Assembly (NCBI GenBank): GCA_036381035.1
Contig: DASVDQ010000084.1
Location: forward strand, 1-54,349
Source: Trueperaceae bacterium
GTDB taxonomy: Bacteria > Deinococcota > Deinococci > Deinococcales > Trueperaceae
DNA length: 54,349 bases
Direction of reading: 5' to 3'
Shown here in pieces: positions 3,759 to 43,970 of the stretch. Made by a program: the position numbers and the translations under genes. Under the pieces are notes generated by a model. It was not told the DNA's origin and searched no databases. It saw only the letters and a list, made by a program, of their open reading frames with translations. Position 1 is the stretch's first letter; every line of letters starts with the position of its first letter.

Positions 3759-5492
3759 TCAACCTCCGCCGGCGCGCTCCGCGAGGTAGGCGAGTAGCCC
3801 GGCCGTCGACGCGTCGAGGTCGCCCTCCGCCTCCGCCTCGCCGCCGAGGCCGCCGGGGCCGCCGCCCCTCTCCGCCTCGCCCCCCTCGCCGCCGAGCCGC
3901 AGGCGCGGCAGCAGGTCCTTGGCCAGCTCCTTGCCCAGCTCCACGCCCATCTGGTCGAACGAGTTGACGTCCCACACGACGCCCTGCACGAACACCTGGT
4001 GCTCGTACAGCGCTACCAGCGCGCCCAGCGCCTCCGGCGTGAGCCTGGGCATGACGATCGAGGTCGAGGGCCTGTCGCCGGGGAACGTCTTGGCCGCCGC
4101 GAGGAGCTCGTCGCCGCCCACCTGGGCGCGCGCCTCCTCGAGGGTGCGTCCGCGCATCAGGGCCTGGGTCTGGGCGACGAAGTTCGCCAGCAGCGCGCGG
4201 TGGTGCTCGACGAGGTCGTGGTGCGGCGCGGCGAACGCGATGAAGTCGGCCGGCACCAGGACGGTGCCCTGGTGGAGGAGCTGGAAGAAGGCGTGCTGGC
4301 CGTTCGTGCCCGGCTGACCCCACACCACGGGCCCGGTGGCGTAGGTGACGGGCGCGCCGTGGCGCCTGACGCGCTTGCCGTTCGACTCCATGTCGAGCTG
4401 CTGCAGGTAGGCGGGCAGGTGCTCGAGCGACTCGTCGTAGGGGAGGACGGCGCGGCTCTGGGCGCCGAGGAAGTCGACGTACCAGACCGCGAGCAGGCCC
4501 AGCAGGACGGGCACGTTCTCCTCGAGCGGCGCGGTCCTGAAGTGCTCGTCGAGGGCGTGGGCCCCGGCCAGGAGGCGCGCGAAGCCCTCGTAGCCGACGG
4601 CGAGAGCGATCGACAGGCCGATCGCCGACCAGAGCGAGTAGCGCCCGCCGACCCAGTCCCAGAACTCGAAGACGCCCTCGGCCGGTATGCCGAACCGCGC
4701 CGCCTCGTCGACGTTCGAGGAGAGCGCGACGAAGTGCCGCGCCACCGCGGCCTCGTCCCCGGCGGCGCGCACCAGCCACGCGCGCGCCGTGCGGGCGTTC
4801 ATCATCGTCTCCTGCGTCGTGAACGTCTTCGACGCGACGAGGAACAGGGTCCTGGCGGGGTCGAGGGCCGCGAGCTCGCGCGCGATCGCGGCGCCGTCGA
4901 CGTTCGACACGAAGCGCACGCGCACGCCCGGCACGGCGTAGGGCTCGAGGGCGCGCACCGCCATCTGCGGGCCGAGGTGCGAGCCGCCGATGCCGATGTT
5001 CACGACGTCGGTGATGCGCTCGCCGGAGAAGCCGCGCCACGCGCCGGAGTGGACGCGCGCGACGAACGCGCGCATGCGCTCCTGGACGTCGCGCACGGCC
5101 GGCATCACGTCCACGCCGTCCACGACGACCGGTCGGCCCGAGAGGTCGCGCAGCGCGACGTGCAGCACCGCGCGGTCCTCCGTGACGTTGATGCGCTCGC
5201 CCGCGAACATCGCCTCCCTGGCCCGCTCGAGGCCGGAGGCGCGGGCGAGGTCGAGGAGCAGCGCCAGGGTCTCGTCGGTGGCCAGGTGCTTGCTGTAGTC
5301 GACCAGCATCTCCGTGGCACCGAGCTCGAGCCGTCGCGAGAGGCGAGCGAACCTGCCCGGGTCCTCGGCGAAGGCGCGCCTCAGGCTGAAGCCGGCCAGC
5401 GCCTCGCGGTGCCGCTCCAGGGCGCGCCAGGCGGTCGCCCAGGCGGCCTCGTCGCGCCAGCTCGCCGCCCGGCCGGGCGACCCTTCAGGCAC
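3759..5492 (-). CDS. pgi: Glucose-6-phosphate isomerase
   Basis: 577 residues from the GTG at 5492. Interconverts glucose 6-phosphate and fructose 6-phosphate in the cytosol. Diagnostic segments in order: MLVDYSKH, INVTEDRAVLHVALRD, VNIGIGGSHLGPQM, ASKTFTTQETM, WDWVGGRYSLWSAIGLS (PGI signature 1 region), MESNGKRV, GQPGTNGQHAFFQLLHQGT, and FDQMGVELGKELA (signature 2). The C-terminus carries a Gly/Glu-rich insertion (about residues 527-550) before a final helix. The GTG is the only start codon that keeps the conserved WRALERHREAL helix; no strong ribosome-binding site precedes it and it lies within a repeat array. The frame stays open far upstream into the Rrf2 gene, which is a GC artefact. GlcNAc-6-phosphate from cell-wall recycling enters glycolysis at fructose 6-phosphate. 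Confidence 0.95.
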   Translation of the reverse strand: MPEGSPGRAASWRDEAAWATAWRALERHREALAGFSLRRAFAEDPGRFARLSRRLELGATEMLVDYSKHLATDETLALLLDLARASGLERAREAMFAGERINVTEDRAVLHVALRDLSGRPVVVDGVDVMPAVRDVQERMRAFVARVHSGAWRGFSGERITDVVNIGIGGSHLGPQMAVRALEPYAVPGVRVRFVSNVDGAAIARELAALDPARTLFLVASKTFTTQETMMNARTARAWLVRAAGDEAAVARHFVALSSNVDEAARFGIPAEGVFEFWDWVGGRYSLWSAIGLSIALAVGYEGFARLLAGAHALDEHFRTAPLEENVPVLLGLLAVWYVDFLGAQSRAVLPYDESLEHLPAYLQQLDMESNGKRVRRHGAPVTYATGPVVWGQPGTNGQHAFFQLLHQGTVLVPADFIAFAAPHHDLVEHHRALLANFVAQTQALMRGRTLEEARAQVGGDELLAAAKTFPGDRPSTSIVMPRLTPEALGALVALYEHQVFVQGVVWDVNSFDQMGVELGKELAKDLLPRLRLGGEGGEAERGGGPGGLGGEAEAEGDLDASTAGLLAYLAERAGGG

Positions 5493-5590
5493 GGGTGCCT
5501 GCCCACCGGCCGGCGCGCGACCGCTCGGGCGGGGACGCCCTCCGGCTCGCGGCGCGCGACCGCTCAGGCACGCGCGCCCTCCGCCCCGCT
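5474..5590. repeat. Imperfect 39-40 bp tandem repeat, 3 copies, between pgi and rrf2
   Basis: Three units share a GGGCGACC/GCGCGACCGCTC core at about 5477, 5517 and 5556, each followed by (G/A)GGCACG and a GCCCTCC-like tail. The array covers the 3' end of the Rrf2 gene and the proposed start of pgi. Confidence 0.5.
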
Positions 5591-6076
5591 CGCGCTCGCG
5601 CCGGGGAGCTGGGCCCGCAGCCGCTCGAGGGCCGGCGGGTCGATGAGGTCGGCCATCTTCACGCTGGCGAAGGCCTCGTGCACGAGCAGCGTGGTGCGCA
5701 CCCACATGCCGTTGACGCTGCAGAAGCCCTTGCGCTGCTGGGTCGCGCAGCGCTGCCTCGTCTGGCAGGTGTCCATCAGCACCGGACCGGAGACCGTCTG
5801 GATGACGTCGAGCAGTGAGAGGTCGGCCGGGTCGACGACGAGCCTCACGCCCCCCGCGCGCCCCGGCCGGCTCTCCACGTAGCCTGCCTTCGACAGTCGC
5901 GCCAGCACCTTCGCGAGGAACGCCGGGGGGAACTCCAGGTCCTCGGCGATGCGCGAGCTGCTGGCGCCGGGGTTCTCGGCGACGTAGACGATCACGTGTA
6001 CCGCGTAGCTCTCCTCGCGGCGCAGCAGCGTCCTCACGCCGGCGCCGGCGAGGGAGTCCCGTGAGGGCTGTCCCAC
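5564..6076 (-). CDS. Rrf2 family Fe-S transcriptional regulator (NsrR/IscR-like)
   Basis: 170 residues. The N-terminal winged helix (about 15-85) has the SSRIAEDLEFPPAFLAKVLARLSKAGYV recognition region (split here by description) and the wing SRPGRAGGVRL. Cysteines at about 104-119 form C-X5-C-X8-C, so a bound [Fe-S] cluster is likely; NsrR and IscR have shorter second spacings. It is divergent from nirK with GGACA palindromes between, so a nitric oxide- or redox-responsive regulator of the nirK operon is the natural inference. A TAGCAT hexamer 6 nt upstream supports the GTG at 6076; the internal GTG at 6037 matches the usual family N-terminus and is the alternative. Confidence 0.88.
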   Translation of the reverse strand: MGQPSRDSLAGAGVRTLLRREESYAVHVIVYVAENPGASSSRIAEDLEFPPAFLAKVLARLSKAGYVESRPGRAGGVRLVVDPADLSLLDVIQTVSGPVLMDTCQTRQRCATQQRKGFCSVNGMWVRTTLLVHEAFASVKMADLIDPPALERLRAQLPGASASGAEGARA

Positions 6077-6082
6077 GGCCGG

Positions 6083-6088
6083 ATGCTA
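6083..6088 (-). promoter_or_regulatory. Extended -10 element TGC-TAGCAT, leaderless start of rrf2
   Basis: Minus-strand TAGCAT preceded by TGC (extended -10) and followed by six bases and the GTG start. The same TAGCAT-N6-GTG layout occurs at 22629-22634. Confidence 0.5.
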
Positions 6089-6183
6089 GCACCAGCCCTT
6101 CCCGCCGCCGGGTCGCCGCCGAGGGCGCCGGGAGCGCACGGTCGCCCGTGCCGGCGCGGCCGCTGCGCGCGGGACCGACGCGC

Positions 6184-6256
6184 AGGACATATGTCCTGGA
6201 CGACAATTGTCCCTTACCGAGACGCGGCCGCACACCTAACTTGGACATAGATGTCC
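6184..6256. promoter_or_regulatory. Three palindromic operator candidates between rrf2 and nirK
   Basis: AGGACATATGTCCT (6184-6197) is a perfect palindrome; GACAATTGTC (6202-6211) is a second perfect palindrome; GGACAT-AG-ATGTCC (6243-6256) is a third, nearly perfect. All share the GACA/TGTC half-site. They lie in the only AT-richer part of the 252-base divergent region, 70-145 nt before the nirK start, and are the obvious targets for the adjacent Rrf2 regulator. Confidence 0.7.
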
Positions 6257-6328
6257 GGGTTTAGGCGCGACCCGCCCCCGGACCCGAACGGGAGAAGAAG
6301 CCGGAACACCGGCCGTAGGAGGAAGGCG

Positions 6329-7540
6329 ATGAGAGACAAGAGCGGGAACCTGCATGCGGGAGCGATCGTCGGGGGCGCCGCCCTCGTCGTCGCGCTCGCC
6401 GTCGTGCTCGCCCTGTTCGGCGGGCGCGACGCGAACGCCGTCGAACCGCCCGCTGACGACCCTCGCGTCCAGCTCACGCTGGCCGAGACGCCCGCGCACG
6501 CGGCGCACGACCTGACGATCAACGCCGTCTGGGCCGAGCGCGCGCTGCGCGCCGACGAGGAGGACCAGGTCCCCGTCGCCGACCTGCCCGTGATCAAGGG
6601 AGCGCTCGGCTACGCTCCCCACGCCGCCCCGCCCGTGGACCGCGACTACCGCGCCCACGTCCAGGTGGAGCTCGAGGTCGTCGAGAAGGTCATGGAGATC
6701 GCCGACGGCGTCGAGTACCGGTTCTGGACCTTCGGCGGCAGCGTGCCGGGGCCCATGATCCGCGTGCGCGAGGGCGACTACGTGACCTTCACGCTCCAGA
6801 ACCACCCGTCGAGCCTGATGCCGCACAACATCGACCTGCACGCCGTGAGCGGCCAGGGCGGCGGCGCCGAGGCCACGCTCATCGCCCCCGGACAGCAGGC
6901 GACGTTCTCGTTCACGGCGCTCAACCCGGGCGTGTACGTCTACCACTGCGCCACGGCGCCGGTGGGCATGCACATCGCCAACGGCATGTACGGCCTGATC
7001 GTCGTCGAGCCCAAGGAGGGCTTCCCCGCCGTCGACCGCGAGTACTACGTGATGCAGGGCGACTTCTACACCAAGGGCGACTTCGGCGAGCCCGGCCTCC
7101 AGGAGTTCGACATGCTGCGCGCCATCGACGAGGACGCCGCCTACGTGGTGTTCAACGGGCGCGTCGGCTCGCTCACGGGCGACAACGCCATGCAGGCCAA
7201 GGTGGGCGAGACCGTGAGGCTCTTCGTCGGCAACGGCGGCCCGAACCTCACCAGCAGCTTCCACGTGATCGGCGACGTGTTCGACCGCGTCTGGCTCGAG
7301 GGCGGCGCGATCGTGAACCGCGACATCCAGACCACGCTGATCCCTGCCGGCGGCGCGGCCGTGGTGGAGTTCGACACCAACGTCCCCGCCTCCCTCACGC
7401 TGGTCGACCACTCGATCTTCCGCGCCTTCAACAAGGGCGCCATCGGCAGCCTGGTCGTGACGGGCGAGGCGGACCCCGTGGTCTACAGCGGCCGCATCGA
7501 CGTCAGGCCCTACCACCCCGAAGCCACCGCCGGGTACTGA
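6329..7540 (+). CDS. nirK: Copper-containing nitrite reductase
   Basis: 403 residues. Reduces nitrite to nitric oxide in the denitrification pathway outside the cytoplasmic membrane. An N-terminal hydrophobic anchor (about 11-31) is followed by two cupredoxin domains. Type 1 copper ligands: H166, C207, H215 and M220. Type 2 copper ligands: H171, H206 and H361. The catalytic Asp (D169) and His (H312) are also present, so the protein should be active. The ATG at 6329 is preceded by AGGAGG at the ideal spacing; an in-frame ATG at 6251 would start inside the third palindrome and is rejected. First gene of a nirK-nirV-sco operon, probably controlled by the divergent Rrf2 protein. Confidence 0.95.
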
Positions 7541-41430: not shown

Positions 41431-41807
41431 AGTGGAGAAGGCACCTCTGAAGAACGAGTAGAACCCGGACCCTACCTGGCTCTCGGACGCGTCCCACCTG
41501 TATCTCTAGGAGAGGCGCGCTCATTCTTAGACCGATCCACCAGTACTCGGACGAAGGCCACGAAATCCTTTGGCATCGGGGCAGGACGGCCGACCATTGC
41601 TGGCTTATGCAGGTAACGTGACCACGGCATGGGCTTGTGGGCCGGAACGTGAATTGCCCCGCATAGTCTCATGTGCGGGCCGGGACACATGGCGCGCCGT
41701 CGCTTCATGACGCCTTGTTGTCCGCAAGGCGTACGCTTGTGGTAGCGGTTTATTACGGCAGGGCTGAGGTGGTGCGCTAAGGGGGGAAACGGGCTCAACC
41801 CTGAAGG
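41431..41807. other. 377-base low-GC gap before the GHKL cassette, with two hairpins
   Basis: No gene could be supported. G+C drops sharply from the anmK end. Two hairpins are visible: CCCGCA with TGCGGG (41658-41679, 10-base loop) and ACGCCTTG-TTGTCCG-CAAGGCGT (41710-41732, 8-bp stem). A minus-strand frame of 137 codons (41472-41885) runs through but lacks a recognisable domain. The region may hold the cassette promoter, a structured leader or small RNA, or a remnant of the inserted element. Confidence 0.5.
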
Positions 41808-42674
41808 ATGGCCGAAGCTGGGAAGCTGAAGGTAGTAAACACTGACCACGACTTCTCCGGCTTCGATTACCTGGCGAGGCTTCACGCCGAGGCCGCAAGC
41901 GTCGAAACCGAGACCATCTCGCTCGAGATGGGCAACGTCAACTGGTTCTCTGCCATCATGGCCGCTCCCCTAAAGGTCATCGCGGACCACTGGGTGGCAA
42001 CCGGCAAGCGGGTCACCGTCGGTTCAGACCCGCTGCCGAGAACGTACGAGACCCTATGCAGGAACCACTTCCTCTGCTACTACGGGAGGGATCCCGTCCA
42101 GGACGGGTACAGCACATCGATACCAGTCACTCTGCTCCCGGACCGACAGGACCTTAAGGGCGCAGATTTTCTGATGGAGAAGGTCGCCAGGTCACCTTAC
42201 TTTCCAAGCCGGATGTCGCCGCGGTTCAAGAGACACTTGTTGACGAGCTTCGGCGAGGCGTTCAGCAATGTCAGACAGCATGCCGAGACTAGCAATGTTG
42301 TTGCCTGCGGGCAGTACTACGTGGCCAAGCAGCGCCTGGCGGTAATAGTGGCCGACGGCGGCGTCACGATTCCTCACAAGGTCTTGGGTCACGTGCCTTC
42401 GCGACTGTCGCCGGTCGATGCGGTCCGTTGGGCCATGGACAGGGGGAACACGACTCGGAGTGATGGTCTGGGCGGCGACGGGCTGTGGCGGTTGCGGGAG
42501 TTCGTCTCTGACAACCAAGGCTCTTTGACAGTAGTGTCCGGAAGAGTCTACTGGCGGCAGGAGGGTTCGAACGAGATCGGAAGGTTCTTGAGCAGCCCAT
42601 TTCCGGGAACCTGTGTCCACTGGGAGATCGCGGTTCGTGACGACCGCGTCTACGACACGGATGCTGTGAGCTAG
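41808..42674 (+). CDS. GHKL-fold (histidine kinase/anti-sigma-like) ATPase of the STAS-PIN cassette
   Basis: 288 residues. The C-terminal part is a GHKL nucleotide-binding domain: N-box HLLTSFGEAFSNVRQHA (about 143-159; E150, N154, H158), G1-like VIVADGGVTIP with D183, and a glycine-rich lid GLGGDGLWRLREFV (about 220-233), as in the SpoIIAB/HATPase_c_2 group. The N-terminal 130 residues match nothing I know; there is no transmembrane segment and no HisKA domain. About 56 percent G+C, far below the flanks. Start ATG at 41808, with GAAGG close upstream. The next gene is STAS-like, so a SpoIIAB-SpoIIAA-like kinase/partner pair is the inference. Confidence 0.75.
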   Translation: MAEAGKLKVVNTDHDFSGFDYLARLHAEAASVETETISLEMGNVNWFSAIMAAPLKVIADHWVATGKRVTVGSDPLPRTYETLCRNHFLCYYGRDPVQDGYSTSIPVTLLPDRQDLKGADFLMEKVARSPYFPSRMSPRFKRHLLTSFGEAFSNVRQHAETSNVVACGQYYVAKQRLAVIVADGGVTIPHKVLGHVPSRLSPVDAVRWAMDRGNTTRSDGLGGDGLWRLREFVSDNQGSLTVVSGRVYWRQEGSNEIGRFLSSPFPGTCVHWEIAVRDDRVYDTDAVS

Positions 42675-42729
42675 GTACGCATAATGGCCTTCGTCACTGA
42701 CGGGGCGGCCAGCCTGGGCAGAATGGCCC

Positions 42730-42735
42730 TATACT
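42730..42735 (+). promoter_or_regulatory. Possible internal -10 element TATACT
   Basis: TATACT lies in the 89-base gap between the GHKL and STAS genes, 28 nt before the STAS start. No -35 is evident, so an internal promoter is only possible. Confidence 0.35.
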
Positions 42736-42763
42736 AAACTGTCGGTCCTTGGAGGCGCGACGC

Positions 42764-43111
42764 ATGAGCCAGACCGCCACTATCAGGGTCGCAGACCTTA
42801 TCGGATCGTCGTTCGCGGTGGCTACGGACGACGCCATGAGGGTTCACGAGGTCATAAAGGAGAAGCTTCAGAAGGGTGAGGTGGTGACCCTGTCATTCGA
42901 GGGCATCGACATGCTCACCACCTCCTTCGTGAACCCCTGCATAGCCTACCTATACAGGACCTTCCCAGCTGAAGTGATTGAGAAGCGGTTGAGGTTCGAA
43001 GGCGTCTTCCCTGAGGACAAGGAGAAGATCGACCGGGCCAAGGAGCGTGGCCGGGAGTTCTACTCCGACCCGGCTCTATTCGAGTCGCTATTGGTGGCCT
43101 CCGATCACTAG
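42764..43111 (+). CDS. STAS-like domain protein, DUF4325 family
   Basis: 115 residues, a full-length single domain. VRVADLIGSSFAVATDD-like opening (here IRVADLIGSSFAVATDD), a helix EVIKEKLQKGE, the strand VVTLSFEGIDMLTTSFVNPCIAYLY, which is the DUF4325 hallmark and corresponds to the SpoIIAA loop with its phosphorylatable Ser/Thr (here TTS), and a C-terminal helix. Such proteins are thought to act as phosphorylatable partners of GHKL proteins. ATG at 42764 with GGAGG upstream; the PIN gene starts 2 nt after its stop. Confidence 0.8.
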   Translation: MSQTATIRVADLIGSSFAVATDDAMRVHEVIKEKLQKGEVVTLSFEGIDMLTTSFVNPCIAYLYRTFPAEVIEKRLRFEGVFPEDKEKIDRAKERGREFYSDPALFESLLVASDH

Positions 43112-43113
43112 CA

Positions 43114-43680
43114 GTGTCGGTTCGGACGGTCCGTAGCTATCGCTTCTCGAGAAGCGATGAGGTCGTTCTGGATACCAATGTCCTTGTTTTCGTATTTGCG
43201 GCGAGCTACAACATCGAACCCGATCACACTCGCCGGGGCTCCCCTTACACGAAGGCGTACAACGAGCTGCTTGTCCGCAGGGCGCAAATCATCCTTCTCG
43301 ACGTCGTCTTGGCGGAGTTCTTCGGGGTAATGGAGGCTATGGCGTCTCGCCACTGGTACAAAGTTGGCGGTGGGAGGAACCTGATTCCCGTCGAGGAGTG
43401 GCAGGAGCGCAAGCAGTTTCGCCGCAAAGGCCCGTACCCGACTCTCCTCAAAGAGTTCCGCCAGGCGACGGCCGACATCTTGAAGCACGCGCGGTTCGAG
43501 AAGGTCGCTTTAGACGAGACCTCGATCGGTCAGGTCCTGGCTGATGTGGAAGCGAAGCGAATCGGCATCAACGACGTCCTTATCGCCCGTCATTGCGAGA
43601 CGTCGGGTAGGGTCCTCTTGACTAGCGACGCCGATATGCTTCAGTTCCAAGACCGCATAGACATCGTTCACGGCGCCTAG
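43114..43680 (+). CDS. PIN-domain nuclease of the GHKL-STAS cassette
   Basis: 188 residues. The PIN acidic residues are all present: D20 in VVLDTNVL, E68 in LAEFFGVM, D154 in GINDVLIARH and D172 in LLTSDADM, so a Mg2+-dependent RNase (or DNase) is expected. Helices with many basic residues (about 95-130) may contact RNA. GTG at 43114, 2 nt after the STAS stop, so co-translated. There is no VapB-like antitoxin gene beside it; the STAS/GHKL pair holds that position. G+C is near 50 percent in its first part, the lowest of any gene here. Confidence 0.82.
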   Translation: MSVRTVRSYRFSRSDEVVLDTNVLVFVFAASYNIEPDHTRRGSPYTKAYNELLVRRAQIILLDVVLAEFFGVMEAMASRHWYKVGGGRNLIPVEEWQERKQFRRKGPYPTLLKEFRQATADILKHARFEKVALDETSIGQVLADVEAKRIGINDVLIARHCETSGRVLLTSDADMLQFQDRIDIVHGA

Positions 43681-43955
43681 GGCTCCCACGTCCCCATGGC
43701 CCTGAATGTGTGACCCGACATGAGCGTGGGCTTCTCATCGCAGGACTCCCTCACATATCTGGCTATACGACCCTGGGACCGCACTTGGGTCACAGCCCGG
43801 GCCTGTGCGGGCGGAGGCCTCACGTAGACCCATACCGTCTAGTCGAGAGCCTATAGGAACGCCGCGGCTGGGGGCGAGCCGATATGCGGTGGGCTCTTGC
43901 GCGGACCACCGCCGCCGATGCCGAACATCTCCCGGTGCCGCCTCGCCGGCGGCGC

Positions 43956-43961
43956 TAGGTT
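43956..43961 (+). promoter_or_regulatory. -10 element TAGGTT before the sbcD-like gene
   Basis: TAGGTT ends 9 nt before the ATG at 43971; no Shine-Dalgarno sequence lies between. The rest of the 290-base gap after the PIN gene shows no gene. Confidence 0.4.
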
Positions 43962-43970
43962 GGGTCCACC

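Follow-up and report, generated by a model that had tools for sequence, protein, structure and literature searches.

What does a GHKL-type kinase do when it is encoded beside a STAS-like protein and a PIN nuclease? The question is raised by positions 41808–43680 of a 54,349-nt stretch of DNA from a Trueperaceae bacterium (the whole of this stretch is called the window below), where three ORFs on the same strand encode a STAS-GHKL kinase, a DUF4325 (STAS-like) protein, and a PIN nuclease. The preliminary description had picked out these three genes, with the PIN gene starting 2 nt after the STAS stop, and had proposed a module for phage defence or of toxin-antitoxin type, in which the GHKL/STAS switch gates a PIN RNase rather than a sigma factor. 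The gene arrangement is confirmed, and the proposed gating finds support in experiments on the vapKSC operon of Escherichia (PMC13373217). That operon has already been described, from diverse bacteria, by Chambers et al. (EMBO J, June 2026; Escherichia sp. E4736; PDB 9Z7O; PMC13373217), who proposed that VapK phosphorylates VapS and the VapC toxin is then released; vapKSC is named in no other paper of the literature searched. The window locus is very probably a vapKSC operon, in which a kinase gates a toxin-antitoxin pair as a defence against phage. It is a further, divergent member of a published system, and the idea had appeared in print before. We computed here the genes, their joint conservation, the intact catalytic and phospho-acceptor residues, and the homology to the solved VapS and VapC; toxicity, antitoxin action, loss of binding by a phospho-mimic, and phage protection come from the published homologue (PMC13373217). 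The features on which the argument draws are as follows.

41808..42674, + strand: vapK, STAS-GHKL protein kinase, 288 aa (structure model; family alignments of 30–34 members)
41808..42089, + strand: N-terminal STAS domain of VapK, residues 1–94 (fold match to TM1442)
41943..41945, + strand: codon of W46, aromatic column, putative ssDNA site (alignment)
42255..42281, + strand: GHKL N-box, E150-x3-N154-x3-H158 (invariant in 34/34 kinases)
42764..43111, + strand: vapS, DUF4325/STAS antitoxin, 115 aa from the ATG (Pfam; family profile against 9z7o_A)
42920..42922, + strand: codon of T53, phospho-acceptor equivalent of Escherichia VapS S48 (alignment)
43114..43680, + strand: vapC, PIN-domain RNase toxin, 188 aa, GTG start (Pfam; profile against 9z7o_C; structure model)
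43171..43635, + strand: PIN active-site codons D20 (43171), E68 (43315), D154 (43573), D172 (43627), and D174 (43633) (alignment)
41431..43970, strand not applicable: low-G+C island, 57%–67% versus about 75% outside, between anmK and sbcD (composition)

The first gene has no match in Pfam. Its structure model, built on 30 relatives (pLDDT 89.8), has two domains. In the model, residues 1–94 match the STAS protein TM1442 (Z 10.9 over 92 residues, 2.2 Å), and residues 101–279 match the anti-sigma kinase SpoIIAB (Z 13.7 over 133 residues, 2.5 Å), which is the best match to this part among the chains listed. The N-terminal part had been suggested as a possible sensor; it is instead a STAS domain, with alanine (A49) aligned at the phospho-acceptor place, that of the serine in the TM1442 DS motif, in a column that is mostly alanine across the VapK family. 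In the published model, ssDNA would bind in the cleft between the STAS and GHKL domains of VapK (PMC13373217). The N-box read earlier from E150, N154, and H158 holds up in every one of the 34 kinases aligned. The column of W46 is W or F in 31 of 34, and W46 is probably the equivalent of VapK F54 and CapK W68, as judged by alignment column. PADLOC 2.0.0 matched the kinase to DrmA (1e-4), an assignment we rejected as likely reflecting only the common GHKL fold. The same program did not recognise the trio, and neither NCBIfam nor PHROGs gave its genes a functional name. Because Pfam does not detect the kinase and PADLOC 2.0.0 does not detect the trio, surveys of defence systems can easily overlook operons of this type.

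The second gene matches Pfam DUF4325 over the cut-off (E = 4.3e-13), and its family profile matches Escherichia VapS (PDB 9Z7O, chain 9z7o_A) at 1.4e-20. Of 34 family members, 33 have T or S in the phospho-acceptor column, which holds T53 in the window copy and the serine of the ASPFFN motif in 9z7o_A. In Escherichia, VapS and VapC form a 2:2 complex, and VapS S48E fails to bind (PMC13373217). The antitoxin of a VapKSC system is expected to have a C-terminal region reaching the VapC active site, and window VapS has a C-terminal tail of similar length. A TTG at 42749, upstream of the ATG, is a possible alternative start. One relative, L036, has the Escherichia-type ASPFFN motif in its VapS; its vapK frame (5527–6484) is split into two ORFs and has a type I restriction system upstream of it.

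The third gene matches Pfam PIN over the cut-off (E = 6.6e-7). Its family profile matches Escherichia VapC (9z7o_C, PDB 9Z7O) at 2.4e-10, and together with the VapS match this supports homology of the window trio to Escherichia vapKSC. The structure model (pLDDT 91.5) has VapC toxins as its nearest folds (Z up to 13.7). 9Z7O is missing among the structural matches listed for VapC, from a structure library that ends on 8 April 2026, so the link to that entry is one of sequence. The acidic residues D20, E68, D154, and D172, previously read as a complete PIN set, are invariant in 34/34 PIN proteins, and so is D174. A single-sequence search with the window PIN protein against 100 related genomes and plasmids found no relatives, because the PIN sequence is too divergent.

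The trio recurs widely. Three hits came from an initial tblastn search with the kinase: a plasmid of Deinococcus gobiensis, a Streptococcus phage, and a phage contig from the gut. In each, the kinase gene is followed by a STAS-like gene and then a PIN gene. Scans of genomes and viral contigs gave 38 loci when seeded with the kinase alignment and two more with the PIN alignment. By profile searches, STAS and PIN genes directly follow the kinase in all scanned loci except L028, L037, and L041, the last of which stops at a contig edge. With duplicates removed there are 38 non-redundant trios, the window included, in the order kinase-STAS-PIN, from searches seeded mainly on the kinase; four of these have one gene broken or cut by a contig end. 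The genes are mostly 0–20 nt apart or overlap by 1–29 nt. The hosts span many bacterial phyla (record titles include Desulfobacteraceae, Desulfovibrio, Neorhizobium, Nitrosomonas, Streptococcus, Butyribacter, Bacteroidales, Planctomycetota, Verrucomicrobia, and Spirochaeta), archaea (Methanothrix, Methanosarcinales, and Thermoplasmata), a plasmid, and temperate phages, and the window proteins share only about 13%–36% identity with the other family members compared. The K, S, and C distance matrices correlate at r = 0.83–0.89 (best of 2000 shuffles, 0.30), far enough above the shuffles to indicate that the trio is inherited as a unit. The trio is a conserved unit, not a chance neighbourhood. 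In the record of Streptococcus phage Javan172 (L002), vapC at 5224–5751 is unannotated.

These results bear on the idea that the locus is a transcriptional switch of the CapK-CapS kind with a PIN gene downstream by chance. Such a switch has the same kinase/STAS logic, and CapK and CapS regulate downstream immune operons (PMC13373217). However, window VapS, at 115 aa, lacks a winged helix and the kinase lacks an HTH at its N terminus, and a PIN gene regularly completes the trio, usually touching or overlapping vapS. We consider this explanation extremely improbable.

A census of DUF4325 genes, in which neither the kinase nor the PIN gene served as query, covered about 1400 genomes in five groups and 86 loci (for Bacteroidota, the best 30 loci only), with VapS-like loci defined by E < 1e-20. 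A PIN gene (vapC) adjoins 20 of the 24 VapS-like loci versus none of the 62 other DUF4325 loci (Fisher p = 6e-16, the loci being not fully independent since related genomes are included), which indicates that the PIN association is specific to one DUF4325 subfamily. At many of the other 62 loci, DUF4325 occurs together with other GHKL proteins, either as a fusion or as a pair. It had been expected that the three families, if they form a module, would recur together in other genomes; the 38 trios and the census count uphold this.

The census also turned up relatives of other make-up. Five archaeal loci (L133, L134, L136, L137, and L138, in genomes G1365, G1370, G1346, G1332, and G1355) have a VapS-VapC pair without vapK, and a VapK profile search of the five whole genomes found no kinase. 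These pairs adjoin a small ferritin-like gene and a gene that by eye resembles a LigD-type 3'-phosphoesterase. The finding of VapSC in genomes without VapK suggests, as a speculation, that the pair can also be driven by some other trigger, and it poses the question of how the toxin is released there. Six loci (L073, L075, L097, L099, L090, and L092) encode DUF4325 proteins of ~100 aa without a PIN gene; most are paired with a STAS-GHKL-like kinase, which in five cases carries an acidic C-terminal tail containing W. They are possibly a sister partner-switch family with a different output. At four further loci (L089, L091, L104, and L142), a VapS-like gene stands alone, lacking both vapK and vapC as neighbours, and is perhaps an orphan antitoxin.

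The surroundings of the relatives speak to what the module is for. Their flanks hold integrases, phage-type repressors, type I restriction enzymes, and BREX-, Septu-, and PARIS-type genes, in agreement with the published figure of 36% of vapKSC operons within 10 kb of a known immune gene (PMC13373217). In Javan172, vapKSC is flanked on one side by the repressor region and on the other by the integrase, whose frame starts 126 nt after vapC. The window copy could be vapKSC by descent and yet serve here mainly in addiction, in the manner of a plasmid or other element, or as a growth checkpoint for DNA damage, and not in phage defence. It forms a free-standing island with anmK and sbcD as neighbours, there is a plasmid copy in Deinococcus gobiensis, and the published trigger model concerns DNA damage in general (PMC13373217). 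Against this, relatives often lie near type I restriction, BREX-, Septu-, or PARIS-type genes, others sit in prophages beside integrase and repressor genes, and the studied homologue gives phage protection (PMC13373217). On balance we think a main use in addiction or as a checkpoint rather unlikely.

The low-G+C cassette noted in the preliminary description is indeed lower in G+C than its flanks, although not to the 50%–57% given there: the three genes have 57.5%–60.1% G+C versus 75%–76% for anmK and sbcD, and their GC3 is 75%–80% versus 96% in those two flanking genes. From these differences we infer that the segment was probably acquired horizontally, from elsewhere. Scans around the island for flanking repeats, promoters, terminators, and Rfam families gave nothing convincing. 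In the stretches fetched from relatives, the orthologous sbcD has no anmK beside it, so that no clean pre-insertion site can be defined.

Within the island, the gap between vapK and vapS is 89 nt, versus about 0–20 nt in most relatives; vapC starts 2 nt past the vapS stop. This long gap contains, at positions 42728–42763, the sequence TATACT and a GGAGG that resembles a ribosome-binding site. They could mark a separate vapSC promoter; a promoter scan gave nothing there at its threshold. Window VapK lacks the C-terminal aromatic tail (...DIF) with which 35 of 47 VapK homologues end. The missing tail and the long gap mean that the window copy could be altered or decaying, and in the extreme the cassette would be a non-functional remnant. 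However, each of the three genes has an uninterrupted frame of normal length, no invariant catalytic residue has been lost, and the tail is also missing from 11 other homologues; we judge a decaying remnant very unlikely. The absence of the tail, the W in place of F at the putative ssDNA site, and the position beside sbcD have also led us to consider that the divergent window VapKSC is attuned to damage in the chromosome of its host, where it would serve as a checkpoint on growth, instead of to infection by phage, a speculation to which we give little credence.

As a vapKSC operon, the window locus would work as follows. VapS would bind the PIN RNase VapC and keep it off. In the published model, ssDNA that appears when a phage infects or DNA is damaged would lodge between the STAS and GHKL domains of VapK and switch it on; such activation has been demonstrated for CapK and is inferred for VapK, which was insoluble (PMC13373217). 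The GHKL domain would then phosphorylate VapS at T53, phospho-VapS would release VapC, and free VapC would cleave RNA, probably tRNA or rRNA, and halt growth. For the window copy, the phosphorylation itself, the ssDNA trigger, the RNA target, and the activity of the operon in its host are extrapolated. In the homologue, Escherichia VapC is toxic unless mutated (D28A) and is neutralised by VapS, and the operon protects E. coli from phage Bas42 by about 2 logs, an effect lost with VapC D28A, VapS S48A, or VapK F54A (PMC13373217).

The range of the module takes in archaeal genomes, a plasmid, temperate phages where it lies next to an integrase, and the high-G+C genome of the window. Its spread in archaea and temperate phages, together with the kinase-less archaeal pairs, goes slightly beyond the main text of PMC13373217, and so divergent a copy narrows down which residues matter. 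In the DefensePredictor study (PMC13092281), PIN systems are reported, with no STAS or DUF4325 in the text.

Among known systems, Escherichia VapKSC shares with the window copy the gene order, the domains of all three proteins, the S/T phospho-acceptor, the PIN active site, and probably, by alignment column, an aromatic at the putative ssDNA site (W46 here and F54 there), and its solved VapS and VapC are matched by the family profiles. The window copy differs in its low sequence identity, long vapK-vapS gap, lack of the VapK aromatic tail, and host group. CapK and CapS likewise pair a STAS-GHKL kinase with a STAS substrate bearing a conserved S/T acceptor, but CapK has an HTH and CapS a winged helix, and CapS acts on transcription instead of on a directly bound toxin; the window kinase model starts with STAS at residue 1, and window VapS is DUF4325 only. 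The SpoIIAB/SpoIIAA/sigma-F system also combines a GHKL kinase with a STAS protein, and the VapK GHKL fold is closest to SpoIIAB. Its output is a sigma factor, however, whereas the third gene in the window and its relatives is a PIN nuclease, and in the published model of VapKSC the STAS protein itself, once phosphorylated, releases the toxin. VapBC type II toxin-antitoxin systems have the same kind of toxin, a PIN RNase, and VapC folds are the nearest structural neighbours; unlike them, the window PIN gene has DUF4325/STAS on one side and sbcD on the other, with no VapB, and its antitoxin would be a STAS protein under kinase control.
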